In this document: positions 1 through 20,466 of the stretch, piece by piece | Numbering within the stretch: position 1 is the first letter of the stretch | Layout: the number at the start of each line of letters is the position of its first letter | Origin: Ettlia oleoabundans | Taxonomy: Eukaryota > Chlorophyta > Chlorophyceae > Chlamydomonadales | Direction: 5' to 3' | NCBI GenBank assembly: GCA_019693395.1 | Contig: JAAMXP010001051.1 | Location: 1-21,624, forward strand | Length of the DNA stretch: 21,624 bases | Made by a program: the position numbers and the translations under genes | The notes under the pieces: generated by a model | Seen by the model: only the letters and a program-made list of their open reading frames with translations | The model's database searches: none | Told to the model about the DNA's origin: nothing

Positions 1-2089
1 GCTCAAGCTTGCCGTCCTGCACAACACACAAGGGATGGTCAGGGCGGGATGATGGCATATTGTGTGAGGTGGGGCAGGGTGGGCTGCTGTTGTGGGCCTA
101 ATGACATCCCCAATGCAACCGAGTCATCTGCCAATCCCGGCTGAGGTCCCCTGCGCCAATGGGTGTCTGCACACTTGCCCCACCAGCTCTGCGTTCCCGC
201 CTCTCGTTTTGCCCACTCCCACTGATCAACCCAACCACAAACGTATCTCACCCAAATCTTCCGCCCAACTTCTCGACGGCCAGCCCCGCCTCAACACCCC
301 ACCTTGATTTTCGCGGACAGCAGCTTCTCCCACAGCGGAATGTCGAATCCCTCCCGCAGTGCCTCCCGTGTGTACGGGCTCTCATACTCTGGGTCACCTG
401 CATTCCGAGAAGCGGCGGCTGCCATGGCAACGGCAGCCTGCGGGGGGAGGCAGAAGGGGACAAAGGGCATGGGGGGATGGAGGGAAACTGCGAGGGGCAA
501 CAGACTGTGCAGCCACCAGCAGACGGTGGTAGCACAAGCTGGAAACTGCCGGGATAGGGTGTTGTGCTTGCTGTCAGCAGCGTCACGGGCAAGCCCAACA
601 GAGAACGCTAGCTGCAAGAAGTTCCACCCCATGCCAACAGTGTGTTAACATCCATGCAAAGCTGCACGCAAAGCTTAACACATGGTGCCAGCCATCCACC
701 TGCTCTACTTCTGCCGCGCTGCGTGGTGCCATGCTGACAATCTCCTCTGGTGTCAAGTTGTCCAGCAGGCCGTCTGTTGCCAGCACAATCGCATCACCCG
801 GCTGCAGCTGGAAGGTGAACACCGCCGCATCAGCCGCATAGTCAGTGTCTGGGGGCTGGCCAAACTGCAGGGCAAGAAGTAGGGGCAGCAATGGGCAGGA
901 GAAGAGAGCCTCGGGGGTCATGCCAAGGAGGGAGCACCCGCAGGCAAAGAGCAGGAGGCCAGGCAGGGAAGGGTCGACAGTGAACAGGAGCAGGAAGGGT
1001 TGCGGCGAGAACTGAAACCAGGAATGGGTAGCAAAATGCCTCAGCATGTACGTTTGATGTTCAACTATTCCCAGCCCCCTTTGCCACATCCCACCTGATA
1101 TGGGCAGTCAAAGAAGTGCTGCATGGCGGGTGACTGGAAGTGCAGCTGTCCATCACGAATGATGAGGAACCCAGAGTCGCCCAGGTTGGCGGCATCAAGC
1201 TGCCCCGTCACGCTGTCCAGGCGTAGGACACACGCCGTGGTGGAGCCAGGCATTTTGGTAGCGCGATGCGCCACATCCAGGGCCTGCACCACGTTCAGCA
1301 CTTCATCTCCGCTGCCATTGGTGCTGCTAGCAGATGGTGTTGAGGGTGCAGCTGCTGCTTCCTCCGGCTCCATGCTGCCCTCTGCAGATGACACGGCTGC
1401 AGACTGCAGGCCGATGCACTCTTCCAAGTATTGCTTAGCAGCTGCAATGAAGGTCTTCGAGTAGTCTGCAGGCGCATTGAAGCAACAAGAGGATGGTGTA
1501 ATAGCGGGCATGCAAGCTAGCGCTGCAGCTACAAAGGTGCAAGGGGCATCTTCGCCATTGGCAGCTTGAAGCAGCCTGCCATGGTCCATTTGGCACCCTC
1601 AGCAGCTGAGAGCGAGGTTCTGGCTCTCACTGTGCACAGTGACAACAGTGCGGGGGCATGGAGCGGGATGTGTGGCTCACCTGCCGGGTTGATGCCGCTC
1701 TCCTGCCAGCCGCCCACGCCATCAGCGATGCCCATGGCGCCACCACCCAGATCGCTCACAAAGTAGGCATCTTCGCCGCCGTAATGGGCCTTGCTGGGGT
1801 GCGGGATGTTCTTCACACCAACCTGCAGCCGCAGCTGCCCGCCAGACTGCGGCCGAACAGCGGCGGCAGCAGGCGCTGACGCCACCTGCGCAGCCTCGAC
1901 TGCGGCAGCAGCGAAGCGTAGAAGGCAGCACACCGTCAGCTTCAGCTAGAGCTGCAGGGGCACGAAATAGCGCGAATAGGGCGCAAGGAAGGACTCACTG
2001 CGGATGTGCAGCTTCAGACCACGAGTCCGAACGGGGACGCTGCTGGGGGCCCTAAACGCCGTGCAGCGCATGGCCAGGTACCTTGCCAT
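1..2089 (-). CDS. PTC7-like PP2C (PPM family) protein phosphatase, 3' end outside window
   Basis: This is a metal-dependent Ser/Thr phosphatase of the PPM/PP2C fold, closest in layout to the PTC7-like branch, which is often organellar in other eukaryotes. Exons, 5' to 3' on minus: 1999-2089, 1681-1899, 1095-1465, 700-864, 303-437 and 1-16. All five introns are GT-AG and phases agree, giving about 332 residues in the window. Visible motifs are GGEDAYF (residues 71-77), GIADGVGGW (87-95), GSTTACVL, NLGDSGFL (about 197-204) and ATDGLLDN (256-263). They supply the usual metal-binding acidic residues, except the final Asp of the GGK-x-DD motif, which lies past the left edge. An Ala/Ser/Glu-rich insert follows the DYSKTF helix (about 121-160). 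The start at 2089 opens an Arg/Ala-rich N-terminus that could be a transit peptide; an in-frame ATG at 2176 is an alternative. The first intron was placed where phase fits, joining ..LHIR to IEAAQ..; that junction is the least certain. Substrate unknown. Confidence 0.88.
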
Positions 2090-2624: not shown

Positions 2625-3034
2625 TCAGGCAATGGGCGCAGAGGGGGCGAAAGGGTGTTGATGGGCCTTTTGTATGAAGGGAGTGGGGCTGGTGGGCGAG
2701 ACCGGCGACATTGGTGAGCTGGGCTGGCTCTCCATCATCTCGGCCTCATTGGAGTTGTACTTGCACCCCACTTGAGCACGAGCTGCACGGCACTTCCAGA
2801 TGGCAATGGCGATGCCAGCCACCAGGATGGCGCCGCCCACTGCAACGCGAAGGAAATAGCGTGGGACAAGGCAGCCAAGGTGCAGCAAGCAAGGCCAGGC
2901 AGCGCCATCATGCACTCGGTAGATAACTGAGAACTGCCCCAACTTCACGAACAGCCAACGCAGCATCAGCAAATGTATTGACAGCGGCAACCGCCAGCGC
3001 ACCTCCGCCCACGATGCCAGCAATCAAGGCCGTG
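2625..3034 (-). other. Transmembrane helix and Ser-Pro cytoplasmic tail (exon 45 end, exon 46)
   Basis: The helix spans the exon 45/46 junction: ALIAGIVGGVGGAILVAG followed by IAIAIW (residues about 2610-2633). Its repeated small residues (G-x-x-G) are typical of helices that pair in the membrane. Basic residues KCRAARA follow, fitting a type I orientation with the C-terminus inside. The 56-residue tail carries SSPMSPVSPTSPTP, a cluster of Ser/Thr-Pro sites that proline-directed kinases could use, then a His/Pro-rich end. The stop codon is TGA at 2625-2627. There are no further membrane helices, so no polycystin channel domain follows. Confidence 0.82.
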
Positions 3035-6000
3035 GTGTTGCTCTTGGTTTTTGGGGGCCAGCTCAGCAGCTCGTCGTCCACCGTGACCTCCACCATGGAC
3101 TGCACCAGGCCGCTCACAGTCACCTCACCCCATGCGGCGGCGAGCAGTACGCTGGCAGGATTGGTGGAGAGGGTGGAGGCAAGAGAATCCGCCGCAGCGG
3201 TGTTGTTGTTGCGAACAAGGACCCTGATGGTGGTGTCCTGCAAGGCAGAGGGTGGGGGCAACCCAGTGCAGATGCAATAAGCAAGGATGCTACATGCTGG
3301 GTGGAGGCGGGCCTGGGCTGGTGGCAGCTCGCAAGCAAGCGCTGCCGCCACACAATGCGCCCAGCCATCAGGAAGCCCATTCAACCCCCGCTCACCACGA
3401 CGACAGAGCCCGAACGGATGTTTGTGAGCAGCACCAGGGTACTAACGCTGGGCACTGCAGCCTGCAGCGCGGCAATGTACAGCTGCTGGACGGTGTTGGT
3501 GAAGGTCTCCGGGTCGTACGCAGTCAGGCGGGCGGTGAAGAAGATTTGTGGCACAGTGAGGGTCACCTGCAGGATGGGGCAGCAACGAGGCATGTGGGCA
3601 GTGTGGCTTGCTGAGGCGAGCTTGTCTACACAACGAGTTTGCATTGTGCGCACCATTGGCGGGTTTTGCGGGTTCATCAGCAGGACAACCTCCCAAGTAA
3701 GACCACACACAGCACAATATCAAACAAGCAACAGAAGCCTGTGCGCACCAGGGTAGTGTTAGAGCTGGGGCTGGGGCTGGGGCTCGAAGGTGTCTCAGGC
3801 AGCCCTCCCTCCGGCTCCACGTACTGCACCACCACCACCTGCTGGTTGTTCAGGTTGGACAGCGCGCAGTGGGCCGCACTGCCAGACACAGAGGTAAGCT
3901 GGATGGCGTCAGAGCGCCAATAGCCAGAAGAGTCCAGGCGAAGGCACATGGTGGACTGCAGCGGGGGCACAGGGTCATAAGTACATTCAGGCAGAGCACA
4001 AAAGTTGGGCTGCTGAGGCTAGCAAGGCGTTACATGTTTGCAAATCAGCCCTTGTGGTCGGTATGCTGACCCACTGGCTGACCGCCTGGCTGCAGAAGGC
4101 AAACAAACATCATAGCTGGCGTGCAGCACAAAATGTACCCAAACCACCGGTGCGGCACCTGTCCAGCGTCGTAGGCGTTGTTGAGGGGCAGCGTGATGTC
4201 AATGGCCTCGCCGCTCACGGTGCCCATGCCATCCAGGGAGGAGGTGAAGTTGACGTAACCTGACGTGGCAGCAGGTGGTGCGGAAGTGGGTTGAGCCACG
4301 GGTCAGCTCCCAGGCTGCTCACCAGCACAGGCAAGACCAGGGCGGTGGCATCGGGAGTTGAACCCAGCTTGTGTCGTGTTCCCAGCTTGCAACCCACACC
4401 AACCTCAGCCTGCAATCCACACCGAATCAACACCACACTCACCGCTGACGACTGTGGTGGATACCGCCCCCAACACTTCGGGCGCAGCCACATTGAGCAG
4501 AAGCTTGCGGCGAGCAGCGGGAGATTCAGCGGCGCTGCTGCTGACCACGGCAAACAGCAGTGAGGGATCTGCCAGGTATGACAGCATCAGCTCAAGTGTG
4601 GTGTCTGCAGGGGATGAGTAGCGGTATGGTCCAAGGGGAAGGGTGAGAGGGATTGGGGGAACTACACGGGGCAGGAGACAGTGAGGTGTATCCAGCCACA
4701 AACAACACACCATCTCAGAACTGTCTGGGGATTCACTTAGGCACAACCGCCTTTCAGTCAAGAAGTGGATGTCCCCTTTTAGTATTCCACGACGCCCAAC
4801 ATGCCCACCTTCAGAATCAACCAGGGCTGCGAAGCCCTCCATCAAGGTTACAGCTGCCCCGCTGTCGCCAATGGCAAACTGCTCGGCAGTCGTCAACAGT
4901 GCAAGGTCAGCCAGGCCAACAGCGGCAAGCAACTCGCCAGTCCCAACAGACTGCGACTCTCCCTCAACCTGAAGGCAGTGAGAGAGGCAGGCAGGCAGAG
5001 AGTGAACAGGGGCTGAAGGGGATCAGGGAGAGGCAAACTCACCTCGAATCTTCAGCAGTTAGGGGACCGCAGATGAGTAGGTTGGCTGGGCATGGCCATT
5101 AACCACAGCAGGTCATGAGCAAAATTGCCGTTGACAGACTAGTGGACGGAATGTCCTTGCCCCCAAACCTGCCCCCCACCTCCCTCACCATGTTGCGCAG
5201 CAGCGCGGTTTGCACGCCTGACACCACGTGGAAGGTTCTGGTCAGGGCTGCCAGCGCCTGGGCAGCCACCTTGGGGTCCTCCTGTGCATCCAGCAGGCGG
5301 CGGCGGCCGCTTTCGGCAGATGCGGCACCAGAGGAGGTGTTCACCAGTGCATTGGCACACGCCCCCGCAATGTCCAGCAGGCTATTCATGTCAGCCGCAT
5401 CCACAGGGCCCGCTGCGCTGAGAGTGTCCAGAGCACTGTTGGCAACCTGCAATGACAGATCAGAAAGGACGGGCAGACGGCGAGGATGTTAGGATGCAAA
5501 TGTCATGCCAGGCAGGTGAGTTTCCACTCCAACAGCCATCCCGTTTTGTTGGTTAACTCACAATTGTATGCATACTACCTTCACTCCCAGCCTTATCAGG
5601 TTACTCACGTTCATTGCACTGTCCGCCATCTCAGGGGTTACCTCGGGGGTGGAAGCAACCAAAGTGGAGGCTGCATGTTTGGCACAGTGATGGTGGGCAC
5701 AGTGATGGTGGGCACAGGGTCAGTCAGTTGCAAAATGCTCTGCCTGCTCAACTGCACTCACCACAACACCCACGGAATAGTTGTGCCAGCTGCAACCGCC
5801 CAGCCTGGTAACCCACCGGCGGATGCCACGCCCTGCGAATCCTCGACAGTGGCGCCGTCGCCGCTCAGGATATCTTCCATGGCGCCCATGGCGTTCTCGG
5901 CCTGCTCAGTGGCAGCCTGCTGGGCCTCCTCGTCGGAGCCGCTAGACGTGGCGGCAGACAGCTGTCGTGCTACGCTGACCACAGCATCAGTTGAACCTGA

Positions 6001-9000
6001 CGCAACGGCGGTGGTGAGGTTGTCACCAATGTCGTTGATGTCAGAAGCGGTGACCTGCTGCGCCGCAGGCGTTGCTGTGACATTAGCAGTGCTGCAGGCT
6101 TGGGCACCCGTGATGTCTGCAAGCGGGCCACAGACCCAGGAGGAGTGAACAAGCCAGGGGCCGGCGATTATGCACCGATGATCTACTACACGAGTTCCCC
6201 CCTCGCACCACAGCACATGGTGAAATAAAGGCCCACAGAGAACATCCATTCGTCTCCCCCAGGCCCCACGCACCCCTGGCGCAGACGAACAGCGTGTGTG
6301 TGCCTTCAGCCAGCACACGCGGGGCAAAGGTGTAGGTGTTCAGGCCGGAGCTGCGAATGAAGTAGTCACTCCTGCCGCCTGGCAGCTGCCGCCCAAAGTC
6401 GTAGGTCAGGGTGGAGTCGGCGGCAAAAGCGCTGGCGGTGGCGGTGAAGGTGGTGGTGTCCACTGGTCCGGTGGTGGGGGAGACAGAGAGGCACGCGCCA
6501 TTGGTGGCAGTGCAGGTGGGGCGGCGTGCAATGGGAACGCTGATGGTTGCAGTGGCGTTCTTGCCATCAGCCTGGGCAGTAATGTTGACGGTAATCACAG
6601 CACCATCAGTGAAGACGGCGGTGCCGGCAGGAGTGAACGGCTGAATCACCAGGGCCTGCCGGGCGGTGCTGGTAGCAGTAGCCAGGGAGACACCGGAAGA
6701 GGTCCAGGAGAAGGTGGTGCGGGGCAGCAGAGACGTGTCATCAAGGGTAAATACCAGGCGGAGCGGCTCAGAGGGGGTGTGGAGCTTGGAAGGGCACCCA
6801 CCGAAGCCTGGGCAGAAGCGGCTGCACAGGGGCAGGAAGGAAAGAGTGCCAGATGTCATGATTGATGCCTCATAAGCACCACAGCAGAAAGGGCAAGGCA
6901 GGACGGCGGATTGCACGCGGAATATTTGTTGCGCACGGGGCTGGCCCGACCTGATTCTGCCGGTGGGGGCTGCACCCGACAGCACCCGAAGGGTTGTGGT
7001 GTCTGTGTTGGTGCGCAGGCTGGCACCCGAGCCCTTGGCTGCTGTGAGGGTGATGGTGTACAGGGTGTCGCCGGCTGGCAGCAGGCCAGCAGCAATGACC
7101 AACTGGCTGGCGGTCATGTCTGGCGCCGTGAGTGGATCTGGGAAGCAAGCGGTGCTGATCTGCAATACATGCCGAGAAGCAGGCAAGACGACAAGAGGGA
7201 AGCATCGCAAGCAGGCATGAGTTGCAAGCCATTCCTCGTTGCACAGCTAGAAACACGGGTCACTATCCACACCTTGCTTTCCACCACTTCCAGGAGCGCA
7301 CCTGAGTGGCAGGGTCTGTGGCGGTGCAGTCCCAGGAGTAGCGGAAGGGTGTGAGCGTGTTTGCCGCATCATCAGGATCAAGGGACCCACTTCCACTAAA
7401 AGTGAGGGTGCGGGTGTCCTGCACACCAAGCAACAGGATTAGACAACACTCAAAGAGCAGTCCAGAGAAAAGGGTCCTGCCAACACGACAACACATCCAC
7501 TGCGCCCACGCACCAGCACATCGCCACGGGGGCCTGCCAGCACCGCCATCACGGCAGACTGCCTGGCAGTGAGCGAGAGTGAAGCCGAGGAGGAGCCTGC
7601 GCCCTCTAGGGTGGCGCTGAGCGAGAAGTTGAGCACGCTGCCACCCGTCACACCAGCAACAGGGCCCTGCATTTGCATTTTACAACAAAGGGACAGGCGT
7701 CAGGTGTTGTTTCGCCATATATTGTTACAGAGATCTTATTCTAGCCTGTCCCGACCCTCCATTCAATGGACAAGATGGACGGCTACAAAGCAACAGACCG
7801 ACCCTGATGGACAGAGAAGGCCGGTTGGCAGTGAAGGCGCCCGCGGGCAGCAGGCCGCTGGTTTCCGCCCATGAGTAAGACACGCTCCTCCCTGCATAGC
7901 AGGCAAGCAAGTTCAGTTAGCATTGACTCCAGAGTGCAAAGGCTGGTTTGCTGCCTCAGCCACCGGCTGCTCACCTGGGCAGACAGTTGAGAGGTCGATA
8001 GCTGTCTGGACGCGAATGCCGCTGGCCACAGAGAACTCCTGTGCTGACCCGCCAACAATAGCAATCATAGGCAGGACAGCGGCGCTCTTTGTGAACACAA
8101 AGTCCGCGGTGGCTGCAAAGGCAGGGAGGCAGGCACATGTCATGCAGAGCTTTTGGCAATGCTGCGGCTGCATGGTAGCAGCATAGACAACCTGCACGGG
8201 TGTGCACTGTCTCAGCGCTAATATAAGTTGTAAAGCAAGAATATCAGGCTAATATGTGGCTGCCATGCCATCAAACAGCGAAATGCAGCACTGCTTATGT
8301 CTTTGGATTGAAAACGGCCATCACGCACCATTACCACCCAGCCAGTTCTCAACAGTGAGGCGCACAGTGTACTCTCCAGCACTGAGCCCAGCCACGGTTG
8401 CCCCTGGCAGCACTAGTTGCTTGTCGTTGGCGTTGGTGGCCGCAACAGCCAGCAGGTCCAGCTCGGCACGCTGGCTGGCGGCGGTGAGGAAGTCCCAGCT
8501 GTAGGTGACCGCACGCCCAGCAGAGAAGGGTGTGCGGGCGGCGCTGAGGATGACGTCTGCGGCGCTGCCACCCGCACACCCAGCGCCAACAGACGTTGGA
8601 CCAGAGAGCAGAGCAACTGGTGCCTCCGGTGTTTGAGGCTCCTGCAGCACGGTAGGGACAGCAGGGGTGCAGGAGATACTGAGGGGAGTAAAAAAGGCAG
8701 GCACCTATGTGCATGTGCATGTGCATCGAGAAAGCGGGATACAGCCCATGCAGACAGGCGCTGGGCAGTCTGTCACCCAACCGCACCTGAAGTAGCACTG
8801 TGGCGCTGCCAGTGACCCTCTGGCCGTTAATGCGGCTAGCAACTTGGGGAGATGCAGCCAGTGTGATTGCCTCATCAGGGACGATGGTTGCCCCCCAGCC
8901 CAGGTACGCCACCAGCGTCTTCGGGTTTTCACTGGAGAACACCTGGCTATAGCCTCCCAGCTTGCCCACAGTGGAAGGTGCAAAGAAGGCACTGCACAGA

Positions 9001-12000
9001 AGCATAGGTGGCCAAAGCAGGCCGGCGCTTTCTAGGGGTGTAAAAGGGTGGGAGGGCAAGGCTCAATCAGTGCCATCCCCGTTTGCAAACTGATGGGCTG
9101 TACTTCAAGCAATACTTCCATCCCTGCCGGGTGCAGGCTTTGTCAATCTAGCACAGCTTGCCTGGCTGCGCTTGAGCCTACAGTGGTCACGTCCTGATCA
9201 AAAGTGATGGTGATCTGGCGTCCATCATTGGAGAGGGCCGCCGAGACCAGGGAGGGAGCGCCACCGCTGCGGCAGGACCGACACATGCATTTCAACGTCA
9301 ACATGCCAGTTAAATTGGTGTGACAGGTGGTTGACTGGTTGCTGATTAACACCCCTCACCAGTCCTCATTGCCCACCTGGCGCAGAAGCCGGTGCATGAG
9401 ACGGTGGTGATGGCCCCAGTGGCATCGTTGCACGCTGACTTCTTGCATGTACGCCCCTCGATAGCCATACAACTCTCACCCGCCCCGGTGCAGTCCCTGC
9501 AAACATGAGCGGGTAAGAGTCGGTGCTCAAACAGCACTAAGCTGAGGTGCCAGGGAACCATGGTTCCAATACACCTGGTAAACAGCAGCGTCGGGCTGTG
9601 ACCCACCCGTCATTGTCGCAGGTGCCCTTGTTCAACCTGGCCAGCAGGGGCTCAAGCAGCGAGCACTTGCTCACACACGTGCCGCCGCATGACTTAACGT
9701 CAAACCCGGTCTGGACATCGCACTGCGCTCCAAGGATGCATACAGCATGCGGGCAGGTTAGCATGTGAACACGTGTCCACTAATCGGGACAGCACGTTCC
9801 ATTTGGTGCTATGCACCTTTTATGTAATGCATGGCCCACGCACCTGAGTCAGAACCTGGCAACTGCTGGTGTCACAGCTCTGCGCGTTTGTACATGTGGC
9901 TGAGGACTTGCAGGTGCCGTCGGGCAGGGTGGGTGCCGTAATGGCTCCATCAGTGGTGCCATCAGAGGAGCATAGAACCAGACCCATGCTGCCCATGCAC
10001 TGGGTGCTGCAGTCAATGAATGAACCGGCAGACGGCAGAAAATGACCACCCATTGACAAGGCACACTGATGCCAGGATTCCCTACCACCCCTTGCCCACC
10101 TGCACTGTCCAATGGCCTTGCACATGGCGGCAGGGCGTGTGGCTGCCTCTGGCTGTGCCGCAACAGTCTTGAAGGCGTGCCAGCAGGTCCAGTAGTCACC
10201 CCCGCTCTGCATGGACCACAGACAATGGTGCAGGTGCACGACTTTCAATTGAGTTTTGGTATAGCCCAGTGCAATAGCACGCAGGGCAGCAGCAGGGAAG
10301 GCATTGCATAAAGATTGGGTTGCTGTTTTACGTACGTATAACCCGGGTAGGGCGCACCTGCACGCAGAAGTCGCGGACGGCCTGGGCATAGCGGGAGGTG
10401 TCACCGTTGAGGCTGGGCAGGACGTCGGAGATGAAGCCAGACACGCCTTGGAGGCACTCGCGGCAGGTGCGGCATGCATCGTAGCACGAGGTCTGGTAGC
10501 GGCAGAGGGGGGTGCCGCGGCGGGGATCGCGCACAGCCGCACAGCCGATGGGTGAGTTGCCCTGTGAAGCGCATGGGTCGTCAGCCACACTGCACCAGCC
10601 CCCGCTGTAGGTGCTGCCGTCAACGTTGGTGCTGTTGTAGGACTGCCAGCGGCAGCCGGCCAGCCCAGTGCACGTCTCGCTGTCCCATGCCTGCCAGCAG
10701 TCAGAGGAGACCAGGCTGCACCAGCCGCTGCTGGCACACCCAGGAGTTGAGGAGCACTGTGTGGGGGATTTAATGAGGCAGCACTCGTCGTCACGAGGGC
10801 AGTAAGACACGTCGCAGCGAGGCACGGAGCGGCAGTTGGGGGCAGAAGCGCAGGCTTCGTGGTCGTTACTGAACTCCCAGCAAGAATCGCGGGTGGAGGT
10901 GCACCAGCCTGCATCGACAAGAAGGAGGAATGCACGTGGCAGACGTAGTGATAGAAGCGGTGTAAGTGGACAGCTATGGCTTTGGCTTTGAGTCTTGAAC
11001 AGATTGCTGCCTTATGATTTTGGAATGGCCTTGGGCACAACCACTTACCGTATGCTGGGTAGCCTCCCACTGGTTTGAAGGTCCTCCAGGAGCAGCTGCT
11101 GCTCAGCTCGCATGTGTTGCTGGACATGAAAGCATTGCAGGGGTCATACCTGTACAAAAAAGGCAGATACGCAGTTGGGCAGCCAGGCAAGTGGGCAGGC
11201 AAAGATGAGCAAACTCCTGCAGTTAGGCAATCCTGAAGCAAGCCAGCATGCTGACCCGCACAGCAGCACTACCATCGGCACCACAAGACCTAACAAACCT
11301 GGACTGACACTGCGTGCTATAGTCGCAGAGGGCACTCTGGGTTGTTTTGTTGGCACATTCGATGGGGGCCTCGGGCTGGAAGAGATCCGCCGGCTTCAGG
11401 CAGCATGCGTTGCTGTCGTCGCATGGCCGCAGAGCCCAGTCCATGTGGCACGACTGCATGTGAGTAAACCATCGAGAAGTGTTATGGGTTGCCTAGGCAG
11501 CCCACAAGGTTGAGGTAATGCAACCCTCTCTCCATGCTGTAATCGGCCAACTGTCTGCCTAGACCTACCTGGAAATGGGAGCATTGTGCCATGCCCTGAT
11601 CATCCCTAATGTTGAGGCATGCCGTCTTGCCGCCTTGCTGGCCTGAAGAAAGTTGAACAAACAGGCAAGCAGGCAGGCATTGTTGGCAGCAGGTTGAAAC
11701 CGGGCAAGTGTGCTGCTTTTGCATTCAACAACAACTAGATGCAGGGTGCTTTCCCACAACGTCAGCGCCCAGCAGTAGCATCCCCTCACCGGCCAGGCGG
11801 CACTTTGCAGAAAGAGCGGCATCCACACAGTTGCCCTGCTCGCCATCTGAGCCCCATGCAAACCACTGCAGGGCCAGCAGACTTTATGATGGTGCGTCAG
11901 GTGCTTCAAGGGAGTGAACTAGGGTGAAGAAACAGCAGGCAGCCAGGCACATGGGACGGTTCCCATACATTGCTGAAAGGCCCAGCGCAGCCAGCCAACG

Positions 12001-15000
12001 ACCATCATTCAAACAGTCCAAGACACAAACCTGGCACTGCTGGTTAGCTTTGCAGGCAGATGCAGAAGAGAGGGACTGGCAAGTGTCGGCACCCCACTGC
12101 AGATATAGGGACAGCAGGCAAGGGACAGCAGACACGATGTGTCAGCATAACACAAGGACGGATGCACTCCTGTCTAATTACTCAAGACTTTGTTAGCGAT
12201 CCCGTGAAAGTTCCAGGAAATAGCAGGATGGTCACCAACCCCCTCATTTTTTACCGAGGGCCAGCAGTAGGAGCTGGCAGTGCACCCAGGCAGTTCTTCG
12301 CAGCTGGAGGTCGATTGTGGAGTGAGCCCCCCGATTTCCAGCGCAGTTGACAGGTAGGAGTCGGGAGGCAGCTGAGCACAGCACGAGTCAGAGGGATTGC
12401 AGCCGTAGCGCCACCGCAGCTGCTGGCGCAGGCTGCAGTGAGGGCGTGATGAAGCGTGCAAAATGGTGAGAAGTGCTGAACGTTGACAAGACGGGCCATG
12501 AAGTGAGGGTATGTTGCCAGTCGAACATCAAACAATGTCCTGCTTTGCATGACACCAGCACCAAATTTGCCCTCACTTGTCAGCGGAACTGCCGCCGTAT
12601 TGGCTTGTTTCGAAGCACAGCTGACTCAGGCCGCTTGCACCCTGAAGCACTCCTGCTGTGGCAAGGTCCTTGTAAGCGGACAGCAAGGTGGTGCAGAAGC
12701 CGCAATCCAAGCTGGTGCTGTTGCCGGCGCCGTAGCCCTCATCACTCTGCGGCGGCAGCAGTACAGGAACAAATGTTGACTCGAGCACAGTGTAGTGCCA
12801 CACGCAGGTGCAGCAGCGTCTAAGCAAGTGATTTACTACCGCAGGTGTGCAAATTAAATGCCTCACCTGGCAGAGGCTTTCCGCCAGTTCCTGGCAGGTT
12901 GCTGCAGCGCTGGCAGCCAAAGCAGAGGCATTGAGCGTGGAGAAGGCATTGCAGCGTGCCTTCACGGCGTTCAGGCGAGACATTGTGCTGCTGCACTGCG
13001 AGAAGGCCGAATCCTCAATGTCTGCACAATGAGGCAGCAGGGCAGGGGAATGATAAAATGACTCAAGAGGTTCTGGGCAGCCCTACAGGCAACTTATGTG
13101 CAAGTTAGACACAGCAATGGCTGCGCACGTCCCGACAGTACGCACTGGAGCTGCAGCCGTAGCCGTTGTTGTATTTCCTCTGGTACTTGATGCTTGCCAC
13201 GGTCTCCGACATGGCAGTCAGGCAGGTGCTGCAGGCAGGGCTGCTATCGCTGGTGCCAGTGCACATGCCCATGCTCTGGCACACCTGCAGGCGTGACAGT
13301 CCAGGTTTGGGGCGGGATCACTAGCATTGAACATGACGGGTTCATCATGCTGGCTGGCTTTCCACCAGCAAGGTAGGGAGGCAGAGCATAGAGGCTGCTT
13401 CACTCTCCCAAACAATGTGAGGCATACCTGAGCCAGAGGGATGGGTGCGTCGCCATCGCCACCGGGTGCCACCAGCTGCCTTACCAGCGGGCCGCAGGCG
13501 GGCAGAGCGGCACTTCGCTGCAGGCACCAGTGGTCGTTCTCGCTGCACTGCTGGCGCTGGCAGGAGGCGCTCCAGCGGCAGCCGGAAAGGGTGGAGCAGG
13601 ATGCGCTGTCTGGTGCCATGCACTGTGGGTAGCCGCTCATCATGCAGTACCCGGAGCTTGGGCCTGGGGCTGGGCCTGGAGCCGCACTGCTGTTGTAGCG
13701 GTGGGAGTCGTAGTAGTGCTGAGATTCGGGGTAGTAGTGGGTGGCGTTGTGATACACAGCGTCAGGGTTGTAGTAGGTATCATTGTAATACCCACCATCA
13801 GGGTTGTAATACGTCTCGTTGTAGTGGACAGGCTGAGGGTACTCGTCAAACTCTCTGCAGGGTGGGCAAGGCAGGAGAGCAGGGAAACATAAAGACCAGA
13901 GCTATTTCAGTGCTTCACACCACTGCCACAGGCGCCTTAAGCCAGGCAGCCCACAGAAAACGGGCGCTCAAGCAAGGCTCATGTTGGTTGGTAGGGGAAA
14001 CATTAGCTGTCCTGATAGGCACCACACATGCCGCAAGCCAACGCACCCGTGTTCAAATAGATGAGGCAGCTTGGCATAGCAGACGGAGGCGGCTGCACTT
14101 GCCGGGTCTGAGCGCATGAAGGGTTCTGTGGTGTTCAGGAAGCAATCTTCAGGCTGGCCCAGCAGGGCGCAAGGCTGGCGTGTGTTGTTCATCAGGTGTT
14201 GGCTTTCAGCCACAACAGACTGCATGCCAACAAGAAAGCAGGTGGCCGGGGCGTGGAGGGCTGCAACACAAGCAGCAGACAACCAAAGCAGGCATGAGAG
14301 ACCCCTTGGCTCCTGCACCAGGGGCTTTCGTCCCTGAGGCAATCTGACCTTCACAACAGGGCACAAGGCCGCAGCCATGGGGTGGCTGATTGTGAGCAGG
14401 AAGTCAAAGTGCTTGCCAATCCACAGCACCCCCTCCAGCATCGTGGGGCAAGCGGCACCAAAGGCCTCGATGCCACTGGGGCCCACAGCAAGCAGCAGCC
14501 CCGCCAGGTCGATGCCGGTCTCATTTATGAACATGGGCAGGAAATCTGCAGGCAGAGGATTGAGAAAAGGTTCCATGTGAGACATTTGCTGGCGATGGTG
14601 GCAGCCTCCTGCCCAATCCTGTTGGGGGTGGCAGCTCAGAGAGTTTCACATATGCCCCCTGCAGGCGGACTGGTATGCCTCACAGTCAAGAGAGCATGTC
14701 ACCTTCGACCAGATCGCCACATGTCGTGCAGGGCTCCAGCAGCATGCCAAACTTCTCCAGCATGAGGTCAGTGAGGTTGAGCAGCTCGGGCAGGTAGGTT
14801 GGGGAGCACAGGCCTGACAACTCACACACGCTGCACATCTCAGGACACGGTGAAACTTTGCGGGGGGCAGGCTGGCATGGATGGCAAACTCAACTTTGTG
14901 GCCTGATTATCACATTCCTGGTTTACATGCAGCCAAGCGCAGGTGAGATAGAGCAGAGCAGCAAAGTGGCATGCCCCACCTGTGCGTGTTGTTGGACATG

Positions 15001-17356
15001 GTTTGCAACAGGTCTGTGAGCGCCAAGCAAAGGGGGCGAGGGGCTCCAGCATGCAGCAGAGCGTCGGCGATGGGTGGTGTGAGCACATCAAAGAGCCCAT
15101 GGCCGCTGCGTTCAGGGTCGTTCCACCAGCGATAGGTTTCATTTGAGAAGTAGCCGGGGGGGAACTCGGGGACATGCCAGATCTGCAACAGGGCCATCAG
15201 TGGCAAGGCATGGCAGTGGTTCAAGGTTGGGAAAACAGGCTGAACCAACATTTTAACATAAGATGACTAGTATTGGGTAGGGAAAATTGGGCAGGGTTAT
15301 CTCGTGCCTGTATTTCCCATACCAACACCTGCCAGGGAGCAGCGCCAGGGGTGTAGGGGCGGCTAGGGCCTGGAGCAAGAGCGTGTGGGTAAGGCCAGGG
15401 GTGGCTAGGGCTTCGTGTTGAGTTGCTGTGGTAATCGGGCATGGGGCTGGAGTGCCACATGCCGTTGCCATTGCTAGAGGTGGTGACCCAGAAGCAGCCT
15501 GAGTCCGCCATTGCTGAGCAGGAGTTGTGATCCACCTGCAGACCAAGAGACACCAGCAGGCCAGCACAGCGGGTTGACTTTGTGGCTACAAGACCAGACA
15601 GAGCGGAATACCAGCTGGACGAAAGGGCTTGAAGGTTGCCCGTCAGTACCAAGGGAAACACTCCACAGATTGGCCTATGGCAGCCATGCTATGCACACCT
15701 GGCGTGAGCACAGGTTATAGTCGGGCTGACAGCCGCTGCTGTAGTAGTTGCAGGAGTCCTCTGGTGGAGAGTCCAGCACACAGGTGGAGAAGGAGTCGGC
15801 ACGGCGGCAGCACGGGTCCTGGCTGTAGCGGCAGGAGTCGACGTCGGAGGTGTCGTGGGGGTTGTAGGGCGATGGTGAATGGGGGTCTGAGCAGCGGTAG
15901 GTGGAAGTGTAGTTGCAGACCTGCAGTGCGGCACATGAGTGTGCGTATGGCATGTCACTCTGTGAAGTTTTGGCAAGGTATGCGTCAATCAGCAGGCCAT
16001 TGCAGCTGGGAATTTCCAGGGCTGCTCGCTCTTCGAAACCAAGCACACCATCCGTGCATACCACTCACCTTGGCACCACCTTCAGTCAGTGTCGCATTGC
16101 CGCACATGCTTTCATCAAGACCCTCGCACACGTTGGTTACGACACATCGTCCGCCGTTGGGCCAGCAGCTGGGGAAGTCATTTCCAATGCAGGATGACGC
16201 GATAGTGACAAACATTTCCTTGAACGCCTGCAGGGCAGGCGGCAAGGGGGGCAGCCAATTGGCAGGCTCAGGTCAGGGGAATGTGAATGCCACTGCAGTG
16301 CGTGGCCTGAGTTTCATTCTAATTGCATATCTTGAAGAACGTGGGCATGCGGTGTTTGCTGGCAAGACCTCGCTCACCGCCTGGCTGTCGGTCTCCCAGC
16401 AGACGCCATCAGCGTCGCAGGTGGAGAGCTGGCACACGGCGGCTGCGGCTTCTGTCACCACGCTGGAGCCCAACTGCAATAACATGTGAGACATCTAGGG
16501 CGGGCTGGGAGCAGGAAGGAGTTGGGGTGACGAGCAGTTTGGCAGCCAGGCAGCGTAGGTTTCCGCCACTCAGCCACCCATTCAAGCACGTGCTGTCAAC
16601 TGCACTGGCTGGCCCTGGCCCAAGCGCCCACCTTGGTCAGGTGGTCACGGCAGGTTGCTGGGCAGGTTTCATTGCGGGAGACGTCGCCGCAGGCGCGCTC
16701 CACGGCGGACAAGTTGAAAGCCGCGGGCCAGCTGACTGTGGCCAGCTCCTCCGGGGACACATCAGCTGCAACGGTAGTGGAAGCCAAGGCGTGGCCACTG
16801 GGCAGTGAGTCAAGAGACTGAGATGACTGGGTCAAAACTCGAGGAGCGTGCAGTATTTAACAATGTCCAAAGGGCGACTGACAGGGGCTTTGTGCTTGTC
16901 ATCTCACCATGGTGCATTTCGGCAAAACTGCCCGCGGTCTGCCACTCGCAGTGAGCCGACGTGGTGCATGCAGTCTTGCTGGTGAAAGAAGCGCATGCCT
17001 TGTTGGCTTCCTTCCTGCACAACCGAGGTTGCCGGGATCGCTTACAACAAGGACCAAGAGGCAGAACCACAGCAGTGAAAGGCAAGGACGGATCCGCCCA
17101 ACTTGCCGGCAAAGTGCGCCGCCCCAGGGGAGGGCCCCACCTGAGGGTGCACTCGTTTTCGCTCCAGCAATGAGAATGTTCCACGGCGCACCCTGTAGGC
17201 ATATGTAGACCGGTCAGCCGACGTGCTCTGAAGAACTCGAAACTGAATGCGCTTTAGGCATGACCGCACCAGTCGCGATTCCTCACCCGCGCACTCACCT
17301 GAGGCAATTGAGGCCGCCAGGCATAGAGCCAACAAGACCCAGCCGGCTTCGCGCAT
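2625..17356 (-). CDS. Giant single-pass membrane glycoprotein: Cys-rich repeats, REJ/PKD-like region, GPS-like and SEA-like modules
   Basis: I read 46 exons in one frame-consistent chain: 17299-17356, 17141-17192, 16908-17014, 16632-16765, 16378-16473, 16069-16227, 15699-15920, 15329-15535, 14980-15182, 14703-14830, 14349-14545, 14047-14219, 13428-13854, 13129-13284, 12867-12995, 12577-12746, 12255-12432, 12031-12096, 11790-11865, 11569-11642, 11290-11453, 11049-11149, 10358-10908, 10100-10206, 9844-10006, 9607-9722, 9377-9496, 9162-9266, 8787-8991, 8338-8641, 7975-8112, 7803-7891, 7514-7666, 7302-7418, 6937-7159, 6274-6807, 5817-6116, 5609-5670, 5189-5446, 4809-4968, 4443-4604, 4159-4259, 3749-3955, 3396-3566, 3003-3237 and 2625-2839. 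The sum is 8073 nt, or 2690 residues plus TGA. Start 17356 was chosen because it begins a signal peptide; an in-frame ATG at 17539 would bury it. Intron 28 needs a GC donor. Less certain joins are 14/15, 35/36 and 39/40. The architecture suggests a cell-surface adhesion or recognition receptor; the ligand is unknown. REJ-type ectodomains occur in polycystin-1 and sea-urchin sperm receptors. It could instead be two genes if one junction is wrong, though no internal start with a second signal peptide was seen. Confidence 0.82.
3003..3566 (-). other. SEA-like membrane-proximal domain (exons 44-45, residues about 2485-2609)
   Basis: Two exons encode an alternating strand/helix unit: TVPQIFFTARL, then a helix (FTNTVQQLYIAALQAA), then strands VSTLVLLTNIRSGSVVV and TTIRVLVR, a second helix (AAADSLASTL) and a last strand WGEVTVSG. 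This order and the I-x-x-GS-V-V hairpin match the ferredoxin-like SEA fold that often sits next to the membrane in surface glycoproteins. It directly precedes the transmembrane helix. Homology was judged from the secondary-structure pattern, so an unrelated alpha/beta domain is possible. Confidence 0.5.
3749..4259 (-). other. GPS-like motif without canonical cleavage residues (exons 42-43, residues about 2382-2484)
   Basis: The segment around LNNAYDAGQ, MCLRLDSSGYW, RSDAIQLTS and AAHCALSNLNNQQVVVV has the order of a GAIN/GPS domain: C, then an aromatic Trp, then a second C followed by beta strand residues. In canonical GPS motifs the second cysteine cluster leads to His-Leu-Ser/Thr, where autoproteolysis occurs. 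Here the matching position reads N-L-N, so the catalytic His and the Ser/Thr nucleophile are not evident. A low-complexity Pro/Ser linker (about ETPSSPSPSPSS) follows. The module is therefore probably structural and uncleaved, but the assignment is moderate. Confidence 0.5.
3761..3784. repeat. GGGGCT hexanucleotide repeat inside exon 43
   Basis: About four copies of a GGGGCT-type unit on plus (AGCCCC on minus) encode the Pro/Ser linker after the GPS-like motif. Because the unit is six bases, copy-number change would keep the frame and alter linker length only. Confidence 0.7.
4443..8641 (-). other. REJ/PKD-like extracellular region (exons 30-41, residues about 1549-2381)
   Basis: This 830-residue region reads like the REJ (receptor for egg jelly) module of polycystin-1. 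Four strand motifs recur: VTYSWDF (exon 30), VSYSWAE (exon 32), FRYSWDC (exon 34) and TTFSWTS (exon 36). They are accompanied by PKD/REJ-like phrases such as YTVRLTVENWL, MIAIVGGSAQEF, SGSGSLDPDDAA and LLPAGDTLYTITLTA. The later part (exons 37-41) is Ala-rich and helical, as in REJ C-terminal regions, for example AAQQVTASDINDIGDNLTTA and LLDAQEDPKVAAQALAAL. The assignment is by motif pattern only. The exon 35/36 join (6937 to 6807) has an alternative phase-consistent placement, as does the exon 40 acceptor (4968 or 4950). Confidence 0.7.
5681..5717. repeat. 15-bp tandem repeat in an intron of the giant gene
   Basis: The unit GGCACAGTGATGGTG occurs twice plus a partial third copy. It lies in the intron between exons 37 and 38, 10 bp upstream of the exon 38 acceptor in transcript direction. 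It is short and shows no coding role. Confidence 0.8.
8707..8726. repeat. Short ATGTGC repeat in an intron
   Basis: Three and a third copies of the hexamer ATGTGC lie in the intron between exons 29 and 30 of the giant gene. It is a simple-sequence tract with no evident function. Confidence 0.7.
8787..9266 (-). other. Beta-sandwich-like segment at the start of the REJ-like half (exons 28-29)
   Basis: Residues about 1445-1548 open with GAPSLVSAALSNDGRQITIT and continue FDQD, a pattern of alternating hydrophobic strands ending in an FD turn. The second part contains LVAYLGWGATIVPDEAITL. Together these resemble the Ig/cadherin-like unit that often precedes REJ repeats in large algal surface proteins. 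The cysteine density drops sharply here, marking the change from disulfide repeats to beta-rich domains. The intron between the two exons (8992-9161) appears to use a GC donor. Confidence 0.55.
9377..13854 (-). other. Main Cys/Trp-rich repeat region (exons 13-27, residues about 579-1445)
   Basis: After the Tyr-rich repeat, exons 13-27 encode the densest cysteine region. Exon 23 (10358-10908) alone has 23 cysteines in about 184 residues. A loose motif recurs: CSTLSGCRW (exon 13), CEELPGCTASSYCW (exon 17), CELSSSCSW (exon 22), CSSTPGCASSGWC and CTGLAGCRW (exon 23). Between copies are helical Cys-poor parts such as CRTCRECLQGVSGF. The exon chain is phase-consistent. The 14/15 join (13129 to 12995) is canonical and in phase as drawn. 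However, an adjacent in-frame stretch at 12996-13021, reading IEDSAFSQ, looks coding and may be retained in a way I could not resolve. The repeats are PSI-like in spacing; exact family unknown. Confidence 0.7.
13695..13823 (-). repeat. 36-nt tandem repeat encoding a 12-residue Tyr/Asn glyco-repeat
   Basis: Within exon 13 the protein repeats every 12 residues from residue 590: YNETYYNPDGGY, YNDTYYNPDAVY, HNATHYYPESQH, then a degenerate copy YYDSHRYNSS. The first three copies (13716-13823) each carry an N-x-T sequon at residues 591, 603 and 615, exactly 12 apart. Fourteen tyrosines fall within residues 584-632. A short Pro/Gly linker (PGPAPGP) follows before the Cys-rich module resumes. Evenly spaced glycans and tyrosine pairs suggest a stalk or a cross-linkable wall-contact segment; that function is inference. 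Confidence 0.85.
14047..15535 (-). other. Pro-rich insert and second Cys/helical segment (exons 8-12, residues about 277-578)
   Basis: Exon 8 opens with VDHNSCSAMADSGCFW and then becomes Pro/Ser/His/Tyr-rich, with stretches such as PSHPWPYPHALAPGPSRPY. This composition resembles algal hydroxyproline-rich extracellular linkers. Exon 9 carries FSNETYRWW with an Asn-glycosylation sequon. Exons 10-12 return to widely spaced cysteines in Leu-rich, probably helical, segments (for example LMLEKFGMLLEPCTTCGDL and GIEAFGAACPTMLEGV) with further sequons NLT, NET, NNT and NTT. The exon 11/12 junction was placed at the CAG before SVVAESQ because phase 0 matches there. Confidence 0.65.
15699..17192 (-). 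other. N-terminal Cys-rich segment (exons 2-7, residues about 20-276)
   Basis: Exons 2-7 encode an extracellular Cys-rich segment. Spaced cysteines occur with Trp in motifs such as ACTTSAHCEW (exon 3), CDADGVCWE (exon 5), FPSCWPNGGRC (exon 6) and CRYSQDPCCRR (exon 7). Alternating Cys-poor stretches look helical, for example the segment around AFKEMFVTIASSC. The spacing of a Cys, a short run, and then C-x-W recalls PSI-type (plexin/semaphorin/integrin) modules, but I cannot establish homology by eye. Disulfide bonding and secretion are inferred from the cysteine density and the signal peptide. Confidence 0.7.
17299..17356 (-). other. Signal peptide exon (exon 1) of the giant gene
   Basis: Exon 1 encodes 19 residues plus one base. 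It begins MREAGWVLLALCLAASIAS, a short charged start followed by a hydrophobic core rich in Leu and Ala and a small-residue end, which is the pattern of a secretory signal peptide. Cleavage is likely near residues 19-20, just before the first Cys-rich segment (CAVEHSHC). The donor is GTGAGT. This is the main reason for choosing the start codon at 17356. Confidence 0.85.
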
Positions 17357-18378: not shown

Positions 18379-20272
18379 CTACTTCTTGGCCTTCTTGGCT
18401 TTAGGGTTGGAGGAGCGAGGGACGTCCACTTTCCACATGTAATAGGAACCGGCCGACCTGAAGGGGCGCCACCTCTCAGCCACCTTCTCCATCTCAGGTG
18501 GCCCCGGTAGATCCTGCAGCCACGGTACCACGTGGCAAAGGGTGGAACAAGTGAAGGCCAGGGTGTGACCAACAGCAACTGGCAGTTGCAAACCCCAAAC
18601 AGTCTGGATACACATAGTGCGGGACAGCCACCATTCGCCTACCACCCGCCACAAACTCCAAGCCAAGCATGCATGGTGAAAATCAATGCTTGCCTTGAGG
18701 CTGTATAGATGCTGCATGCCCCTGCGCACACCTAGGTCCCCAACAGGCAGCACATCCGGGCTGCCAAGATGAAACATTGCATGCTGCAGCAGAGGGTTTA
18801 GACAGCCAAACAGTGGCTCAGAACCAGCCACCGCCCATCCAGCAAAGGTGTAGCAGCATTGCAGCAGTGCATGCATGAATGCCTGCCCTTGTTCATGCGT
18901 TAGCCTAATGCAATTCACACATTCTCCCTCAGCCCCATGTAAAGCCGCCATACCACTGCTGCTCACCATGTGGCACGTCCCTGGAGCATCATAACATGCA
19001 GGGCACAGCAAATGAAAATAACAAGTAAGTAACGAACGTATAGAACACCTGCTATATCTTGCAACACAGCATGATAACTGACTCTGATGGCTGCCAGGTT
19101 GCACCCACGGGTGCCTGGGCAGCGGCAGTAGGCACTCACATTTGCCTATGCCCTTGACAGCACATAGTTCTACCTCCAACGTCTCTTCATCCATTCCTGC
19201 ACACCCAGGCATAATGCACAGATACATGGAAAGGGCAATGACGAGTGTCAGACAGCACGTCACCTGCCACCTCCAGGTCTGTGCTGGAAACCGGAAGGGG
19301 CACATCTCACCCGCAATTTTCTCATCAGACAGCCTTCCGTCCCTGAAGTGTTGGGCCAGGTCAAGCAGGTAGCCAGCCTTGCGCTCTGATAGACCCGCCT
19401 CTCGCAGCTTGGGCAGCGGCACCGCCAGCACTGCCTCAGGGGTCAGCGAGTCAGCGCAGGCGCAGGCTGCCAGCACGCGGCCATATATTTTTGCAGCTGC
19501 ACTAGTAGCTAGTTGCTGCAGGGAAGATTGCAGGACAAAGTATGTGGCAGGAGAGGAGCTGGGTTGGGCGGCCAAAGCATCAAGCAGGGGGGCGGCAATC
19601 CATGGCAGCGGAACAGAAAATGGGAGCAACCATGCAATGAACCTCCCTCAACAAGGCTAATAGCCTGGTGCATGGCAGATGGACCCACTGCCTGACCAGC
19701 TCACTTGAAAGATGATTGCCTTGGCCAGCGTGGCATGGTTGCTGCCTGTCTTGCGCAGCAGGCCGTCTGGCAGGCCCAGCTGCTGAATCAGCGGCGCCAG
19801 CTCTACAGGGGTGGCAGACAGGCGGCCCCATGGTATGTAAGCAGCTTACATGAGCAGAGCTGGAGGCAAAGCAGGACATGCAGTCTTTGCATTGGCATGA
19901 ACTGCGTTTTGGTAGCCTCGTTTATTGCTCACTTGGGTCGGCTTTCGCCAGGTAGTCACAGGCAGTTTGCAGCGAGGAGCTGGTGAAGCCCGCCGCTGCC
20001 AGTGGCATGTGGTCGATTGCGTCAGTGGCTGCCTCCACGTTGATACCGCCCCCCAGCAGCAGCGCAGGGATGCCAATGTCCTGGGGTGCTTTGCGAGGGG
20101 CACGCTGAGCCACGGCTGTTGGCGTGGCGCGCTTGGAGGTGCTACCCTCCTTATCCGCCGTCACTGCTGCCGCATGCTGCAGGCCCCTGCTTTTTGCCCC
20201 GGTTTGGCTGTCGTCGCCGCCCTTCGGCATGCCATGTACCACTTGAGGCGCCTTTCGCTTTCGCAGCAGCAT
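18379..20272 (-). CDS. AlkA/MAG-type DNA-3-methyladenine glycosylase (HhH-GPD superfamily)
   Basis: This enzyme excises alkylated purines such as 3-methyladenine from DNA to start base-excision repair. Exons on minus: 19933-20272, 19705-19802, 19311-19515, 19140-19196, 18967-18980, 18694-18783 and 18379-18513. The sum is 939 nt, or 312 residues plus TAG. Family marks in order: LAKADPKLAPLI (about 109-120), AKAIIFQQLA (140-149), a long helix region LSERKAGYLLDLAQH, the helix-hairpin-helix VKGIGKWT (228-235), SPDVLPVGDLGVRRG (246-260) with the expected catalytic Asp at 254, and the C-terminal WRPFRSAGSYYMWKV. The first 80 residues are a basic low-complexity extension (RKRK near the start). With the KAKKAKK end, this suggests nuclear targeting. 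The final intron (18514-18693) uses a GC donor, and exon 5 has 14 nt. An upstream in-frame ATG at 20386 could add an organellar presequence. The helicase gene diverges from its 5' end. Confidence 0.92.
18967..18980 (-). other. 14-nt microexon of the glycosylase gene
   Basis: The 14 bases supply the last two bases of the Trp codon and the residues T-C-H-M. They complete the helix-hairpin-helix reading GIGKWTCHM before the next exon begins HAMFHLG. Flanking signals are ...CTCCAG before and GTGAGC after. Without this exon the reading frame breaks and the Trp of the conserved motif is lost, so family conservation supports it strongly. Confidence 0.85.
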
Positions 20273-20466
20273 GGAGGCAGCGTGGTGAGGTTCGGGAAAA
20301 AGGGCGAGCACTCCGGCGTGTCGGCTGCGGATCAAGCAGCGACCGTGAATAAACGAACCAAGAAGCAGCATGCACCCGCTCTGCATGCCCCAGATCAAGG
20401 CAGGGTTTTTGGCAGGTTTTGCGCCTGCCACCTGAGCTTGCCACCTAGGAGGCCTGGTTATACATA
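20273..20466. promoter_or_regulatory. Short divergent promoter region between glycosylase and helicase
   Basis: Only 194 bp separate the chosen start codons of the glycosylase (minus) and the helicase (plus), so both promoters and 5' leaders must share this space. Part could be glycosylase coding sequence if the upstream ATG at 20386 is used. I see no clear TATA box at a suitable distance for either gene. Confidence 0.6.

Follow-up and report, generated by a model that had tools for sequence, protein, structure and literature searches.

A 46-exon gene of the green alga Ettlia oleoabundans predicted to encode a single-pass REJ-domain surface protein with a SEA-like module near the membrane

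The 21,624-bp contig JAAMXP010001051.1 of the green alga Ettlia oleoabundans, analyzed over its whole length and referred to here as the window (contig 352 of the 32.9-Mb genome assembly as searched), carries a large minus-strand gene between positions 17356 and 2625. An original prediction, made from the sequence alone, had read this interval as a single 46-exon gene for a polycystin-like ectodomain of 2690 residues that lacks a channel. The gene is confirmed. The curated model extends from an ATG at 17356 to a TGA at 2627-2625 and comprises 46 exons with a coding sequence of 8082 nt, which yields 2693 residues and a single terminal stop; the remaining two frames of the same exons contain 53 and 96 stops. 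The introns measure 83 to 220 nt (median, 147 nt), 44 of them bounded by GT-AG and one by GC-AG, the GC donor being that of exon 28. The donor of exon 17 and the acceptor of exon 42 are weak. The matching of exon phases across 45 introns, originally offered as an argument for the gene, carries little weight alone because splice sites are picked so as to keep the phase; the exon-by-exon alignment of a related protein, described below, is stronger evidence.

Exons were located with a semi-Markov gene finder self-trained on the window and 20 loci of the same genome, with the window supplying ∼11% of the training letters; the splice signals that it learned (AG/GTGAG and TGCAG/) were strong. When run on the slice from 2625 to 17356, whose outer ends were imposed by the coordinates of the original prediction, the program predicted a single gene with 46 exons and 2455 residues, its start placed at an internal ATG (17324), and 36 of its 46 exons were identical to those of the curated model. 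The other 10 (exons 1, 2, 6, 8, 11, 17, 18, 21, 39, and 43) were set by hand according to reading frame, cysteine pattern, and splice signals, before any homolog had been fetched. The best identities of hand-set exons 8, 11, 17, 18, 21, 39, and 43 to related proteins are 46, 41, 53, 55, 49, 56, and 62%, respectively, and exons 1, 2, and 6 find weak support there; the N-terminal exons 1 to 6 and the ends of exons 11, 17, 39, and 43 are uncertain. The gene strand scored 648 with the automatic path and a lower 620 with the curated model under the same scoring, compared with controls of 101 for the opposite strand and 4.0 to 28.8 for 20 dinucleotide shuffles. Settings with cheaper introns gave fragmented models and were dropped. 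A run on the whole window recovered the same exons but merged them with both neighboring genes into a 59-exon model, which counts against a single gene.

Related proteins were found in Micractinium conductrix (P0001), Micractinium tetrahymenae (P0002 and its paralogue P0005), and Chlorella sorokiniana (P0003, annotated as “receptor for egg jelly precursor”), together with one from a source without a name (P0004). The window protein is 43 to 51% identical to these five over the aligned part, and collinear similarity over most of its length places it in this Chlorellaceae “receptor for egg jelly” family. P0004, which has 1826 residues, spans residues 722 to 2693 of the window protein as one unit. 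Its 5755-base contig is probably a spliced transcript, since ∼95% of it is open reading frame. All 21 matches reported for P0002 in the 32.9-Mb genome (19 of 29 first-look candidates scored) lie inside the gene and on its strand, exon by exon and broadly collinear; three of them hold one internal stop, as expected of reads entering introns. All seven matches reported for the more divergent P0008 also lie inside the gene, as do both reported matches of the REJ profile, these counts being lower bounds. Because the reported matches of P0002, P0008, and the REJ profile all fall here, the gene appears, within the reach of these searches, to be single copy. Transcripts of two or more separate genes had been named as the finding that would overturn the first reading; relatives over most of the length, the collinear matches, and the coverage of residues 722 to 2693 by P0004 instead point to one gene.

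The encoded protein begins with a signal-peptide-like segment, MREAGWVLLALCLAASIAS (residues 1 to 19; exon 1, positions 17300..17356), recognized by hydropathy and by eye as originally claimed. A Cys/Trp-rich ectodomain follows (residues 20 to 1444; exons 2 to 27, 9377..17192); of the 140 cysteines in the protein, 118 fall within residues 1 to 1400, in agreement with the Cys/Trp-rich N terminus first described, and the protein has 30 N-x-S/T sites. Within this head lies one copy of a Trp/Cys (W/C) module (VPEFPPGYF..RWW..GHG..; residues 346 to 578, 14047..15182), which has no Pfam match. In P0005, four such modules, also without a Pfam match at E ≤ 1, were seen by eye in tandem at residues ∼290 to 1390, spaced ∼270 residues apart. 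PSI repeats, another element of the first reading, were rejected: no PSI match was obtained in Pfam at E ≤ 10, and the six units of the form C-x(5-10)-C-x(3-7)-C-x-[WYF] compare with a mean of 1.6 and a maximum of 6 in 500 shuffles. The Pfam search of the window protein also gave no lectin family at E ≤ 10 and no EGF or MANEC match.

The head is followed by a segment that is possibly Ig-like by eye (residues 1445 to 1548; exons 28 and 29, 8787..9266), without a Pfam match and 35 to 44% identical to the relatives. Next comes a PKD-like domain (residues 1577 to 1656, 8102..8557) that matches PF22352 (K319L) with an E value of 1.3e-5. A PKD-like module had been proposed, and the match is in line with this, although its 25.5 bits fall just under the cutoff of 27; the cutoff is exceeded in P0002 and P0004. 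In an AlphaFold2 (AF2) model of P0002, the part corresponding to this domain has a predicted local distance difference test (pLDDT) score of 73 to 83. The REJ domain (PF02010) is unambiguous, with an E value of 1.5e-26 and 93.4 bits against a cutoff of 25, and occupies residues 1738 to 2118 (exons 33 to 37, 5974..7639), inside the interval 1549 to 2381 where the original prediction had placed it. REJ is also found by Pfam in all five relatives, with which the window protein shares 57 to 63% identity in this domain, 35 to 56% in the W/C head from residue 346, and 19 to 33% in the first 202 residues.

The region after REJ (residues 2119 to 2465, 3815..5973) is helical and then beta, contains a Cys..Trp..Cys pattern, and occupies the position of a GAIN/GPS unit; in polycystin-1, the GPS is located before the first transmembrane segment. 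The Cys..Trp..Cys pattern is present, with beta strands, in four of five aligned rows. The claim of a GPS-like module did not hold at the sequence level, as Pfam gave no GPS match at E ≤ 10 and the HL-S/T tripeptide was absent by eye from all five aligned members. For the GAIN fold, an AF2 model of P0002 predicted helices and then strands, with a pLDDT of only 23 to 76, and a comparison of the region to PDB sequence profiles gave no useful match. Since the mean pLDDT of the P0002 segment from REJ to the tail (1092 residues) was 45.6, its Foldseek list (query template modeling scores of 0.06 to 0.10 in the rows shown) was not used.

A Ser/Pro-rich linker (residues 2466 to 2487, 3749..3814) separates this region from a SEA-like domain of 111 residues (2488 to 2598; exons 44 and 45, 3076..3566), which was modeled with AF2 on the P0002 counterpart aligned with P0001, P0005, and the window exons 44 and 45. 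The best of five models (pLDDT, 81.3; predicted template modeling score, 0.77) has a ferredoxin-like beta-alpha-beta-beta-alpha-beta topology (E2-14, H24-36, E42-47, E54-62, H70-81, and E95-108), and the other four have pLDDT scores of 58.9 to 64.8. An invariant G52-S53 precedes the third strand directly. In the window protein, this pair opens the sequence GSVVV (residues 2540 to 2544, 3396..3410), a candidate site of self-cleavage (G^S), which the model places between beta2 and beta3 and which coincides exactly with the exon 44/45 border; the relatives have GSVYV, GSVIV, GSVVV, and GSAVV, the G-S pair and the final V being invariant in all five sequences. SEA domains with GSVVV or GSIVA are described as cutting themselves in the loop that connects strands 2 and 3 (PMC6954182), and GSVVV is the cleavage site of MUC1 (PMC4456727). 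Several results weigh against assigning the domain to SEA: the Pfam SEA profile matched none of five members at E ≤ 10, PDB sequence profiles gave nothing meaningful, and the 50 matches listed by each of two fold searches included ferredoxin-like chains but none with the name SEA. We therefore call the domain SEA-like, so that the SEA-like module originally claimed is borne out in part, by fold topology and motif but not by family match. It occurs in the window protein, P0001, P0002, P0005, and P0008 but not in P0003 or P0004, in whose lineage it would by parsimony have been lost, because the more distant paralogue P0005 carries it.

Near the end of the protein lies one transmembrane helix (about residues 2612 to 2636, 2799..3036), which has a run of glycine and small residues and contains the exon 45/46 junction. 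It is the only hydropathy peak (from residue 2611 on) besides the protein start and a stretch at 2516 within the SEA-like domain. One hydrophobic helix near the receptor end with such a run was found in all six proteins, by hydropathy in the window protein and by eye in P0001 to P0005. The cytoplasmic tail (residues 2637 to 2693, 2628..2798) has 57 residues, where 56 had been counted, and contains the motif SQPSSPMSPVSPTSPTP (2679..2729) with five S/T-P sites. P0002, P0003, and P0004 have SQPTSPxSP; the SQP[TS]SP-type motif is thus present in four of six proteins, P0001 and P0005 lacking it.

Neither PLAT nor a channel domain was matched in any of the six proteins (Pfam; E ≤ 10 for the window protein and E ≤ 1 for the five relatives), in line with the single helix and missing channel of the original prediction. 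Because all six share a single transmembrane segment near the end and none has a PLAT or channel match, the lack of a channel is, as judged from these sequences, a trait of the family and not a truncation of this gene. Describing the protein as a polycystin cut short is accordingly misleading, given the absence shared across the algal family and the sea urchin protein suREJ1, which also has one transmembrane segment (PMC10855541). The same source gives two segments for suREJ2 and eleven for suREJ3, and with one in suREJ1, single-pass REJ receptors were thus already known. Elsewhere in the genome, two PLAT matches were reported, both on contig 326 (L023 and L024), and Ion_trans matched in a cluster of six on contig 365 and a seventh time on contig 793. 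PKD_channel had no match in the genome, in a search without a positive control that is weak either way.

Beyond the five relatives, a Haematococcus protein of 1592 residues has REJ and, under the cutoff, PKD, and aligns over 33% of the query at 29% identity; no transmembrane helix was seen near its end. This protein extends the family to the Chlorophyceae. When the first 1330 residues of P0002 served as the query (7986 candidates scored), the matches listed were P0002, P0003, and P0004 only, with P0001 and P0005 missed; at that sensitivity, the head is thus without relatives beyond the family. Bacterial-looking PKD-repeat proteins (P0006, P0007, and P0013) were set aside as similar at the level of PKD. 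Among the papers listed in searches of the open-license literature, none on this algal protein was seen, and a lead combining “receptor for egg jelly” with Chlorella proved to be a Hydra transcript table rather than an algal one. The family proteins were already in databases under a borrowed name or none. The present analysis adds the gene model, the family-wide channel-less form, and a SEA-like module with GSVVV next to a GPS position that lacks the tripeptide.

P0001 to P0005 resemble the window protein in module order and in the single transmembrane segment near the end; they depart from it in P0003 and P0004, which have no SEA-like domain, and in P0005, with its four W/C modules. The window gene in turn differs from its relatives by an insert in exon 13 (13729-13823), where a 36-base tandem repeat encodes a Tyr/Asn-rich stretch (YYNPD...) with several N-x-S/T sites; no such stretch was seen by eye in the relatives.

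Among better-known proteins, KIAA0319-like (AAVR) receptors are single-pass. The window protein shares with them the PF22352 match, and P0002 weakly matches PDB entry 6nz0 (E = 0.15), but the window protein has no MANEC match, only one PKD-like match, and an added REJ domain. It resembles polycystin-1 in having a PKD-like domain, then REJ, and then a region at the GAIN position before the membrane, and differs in lacking the GPS tripeptide and PLAT and in having 1 rather than 11 transmembrane segments. suREJ1 carries EGF modules. It and PKDREJ are like the window protein in their REJ module and large ectodomain, and suREJ1 also in its single transmembrane segment (PMC10855541). A lectin domain lies upstream in suREJ1 (PMC4700764), whereas the window protein has no lectin, EGF, or GPS match. 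With MUC1 and the adhesion G protein-coupled receptors (GPCRs) GPR110/GPR116, the window protein shares a SEA-like fold whose beta2-beta3 loop contains GSVVV (PMC6954182), although it has no Pfam SEA match and cleavage at its GSVVV is putative. The Ectocarpus protein Esi0130_0068 is likewise an algal REJ protein with a large ectodomain, but it is brown algal and has a GPS and six or seven predicted transmembrane helices (PMC4700764).

The reading that we favor, with somewhat better than even confidence, is that the gene encodes a type I single-pass surface receptor or adhesin of the REJ kind in which self-cleavage at the SEA-like domain and shedding replace the GPS. Its architecture, its conservation, and its single copy within the searches made can be read from the sequences; how the protein would act is what we infer beyond them. 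The Cys-rich head would bind a partner on another cell, a wall, or a symbiont surface, and the PKD/REJ rod may pass on a pull. The SEA-like domain would fold and cut itself at G^SVVV, its halves staying joined noncovalently, until a strong pull sheds the ectodomain, a role filled by GPS/GAIN in polycystin-1 and adhesion GPCRs. The transmembrane helix may pair through its glycine face, and the tail would be regulated by proline-directed phosphorylation instead of a channel. The cleavage site of the receptor has probably moved from the GPS to the membrane-proximal SEA-like module. More tentatively, and with the expectation that some part is likelier to fail than the whole is to hold, we propose a green-algal, mechanically releasable REJ receptor with a dead GAIN/GPS site, cleavage at the SEA-like GSVVV, a single transmembrane segment, and a phosphorylation tail, from which the P0003/P0004 lineage later lost the module. 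If true, cleavable force receptors of the polycystin/adhesion GPCR type would have an independent counterpart of channel-free design. Most of what is known of REJ proteins comes from animal fertilization and polycystic kidney disease, with GPS cleavage and channels prominent; in a conserved, channel-free REJ receptor of green algae, the REJ ectodomain stands apart from the channel. The receptor would also be a candidate molecule for recognition between algal cells, in mating, or between symbiont and host; a ciliate is home to M. tetrahymenae, and Hydra to a Chlorella (PMC12516953, PMC6019070).

The large ectodomain, with its many cysteines and N-x-S/T sites, would also suit a nonsignaling adhesin or stalk of the wall or glycocalyx, in which PKD/REJ is just a rod and the tail just an anchor, and the REJ subdomains of polycystin-1 are reported to act as mechanical elements (PMC3677617). 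We consider this rather doubtful, as the Ser-Pro tail motif in four of six proteins and the glycine run of the transmembrane helix in all six hint at a cytoplasmic role. A receptor for gamete recognition in mating, a role also raised in the original prediction, like the REJ proteins of sea urchin sperm and perhaps those of Ectocarpus male gametes, is possible by analogy with suREJ1 and Esi0130_0068 but seems unlikely. The REJ domain itself fits such a role, and Esi0130_0068, with REJ and GPS, is described as specific to male gametes and as having sites under positive selection in REJ (PMC4700764). The lower identity of the W/C head than of REJ or the neighboring glycosylase (68% over 241 residues) is what a faster-evolving head would give. 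Core meiosis genes are mostly kept in trebouxiophytes, and Auxenochlorella keeps GEX1 and HAP2, according to a source that nonetheless notes that sex in the Trebouxiophyceae has little direct evidence behind it (PMC12636532). Against mating also stand the missing lectin match and the fact that REJ is the conserved part here, whereas it is positively selected in Ectocarpus and primates (PMC4700764).

A degenerate polycystin-1 that lost PLAT and the channel half in this lineage would account for the order of PKD-like and then REJ, and the absence of a PKD_channel match from the genome would fit, subject to the missing control. We find this origin highly improbable: five of the six family proteins terminate shortly after a single transmembrane helix (the sixth, P0001, is annotated as continuing into a different gene), the DNA past the stop belongs to a PP2C-like gene, and Ion_trans matches do occur elsewhere in the genome. 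That the locus is an annotation artifact, made of two or more genes or a pseudogene, is suggested by the merged gene-finder run, the ten hand-set exons with the weak exon 17 donor and exon 42 acceptor, and the chimeric look of the public P0001 model. Nevertheless, the relatives over most of the length, the collinear exon matches, the transcript-like P0004 contig, and the absence of a frame break from the curated model make an artifact extremely improbable.

Directly downstream of the REJ gene, a gene resembling PP2C-type phosphatases (300-1945, minus strand) has SpoIIE/PP2C_2 matches. Upstream of the REJ gene lies an HhH-GPD DNA glycosylase gene (18383-20324, minus strand) that is 68% identical over 241 residues to the glycosylase part of P0001, followed by a partial SUV3-like helicase gene (20951-21624, plus strand) that runs off the end of the window. 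Scanning the window against Rfam and for tRNAs found nothing. Because the glycosylase is annotated in M. conductrix as fused to the REJ receptor in P0001, the upstream neighborhood seems to be conserved between the two algae; P0001 runs on into ankyrin/U-box domains, and the downstream neighbor therefore differs. The public P0001 record, “putative DNA-3-methyladenine glycosylase 2,” appears to be a chimeric model that joins three genes, namely, a glycosylase, a REJ receptor, and an ankyrin/U-box protein. Within the REJ gene, the intron immediately upstream of exon 38 holds a perfect 15-base tandem repeat of 2.5 copies at positions 5681-5717.
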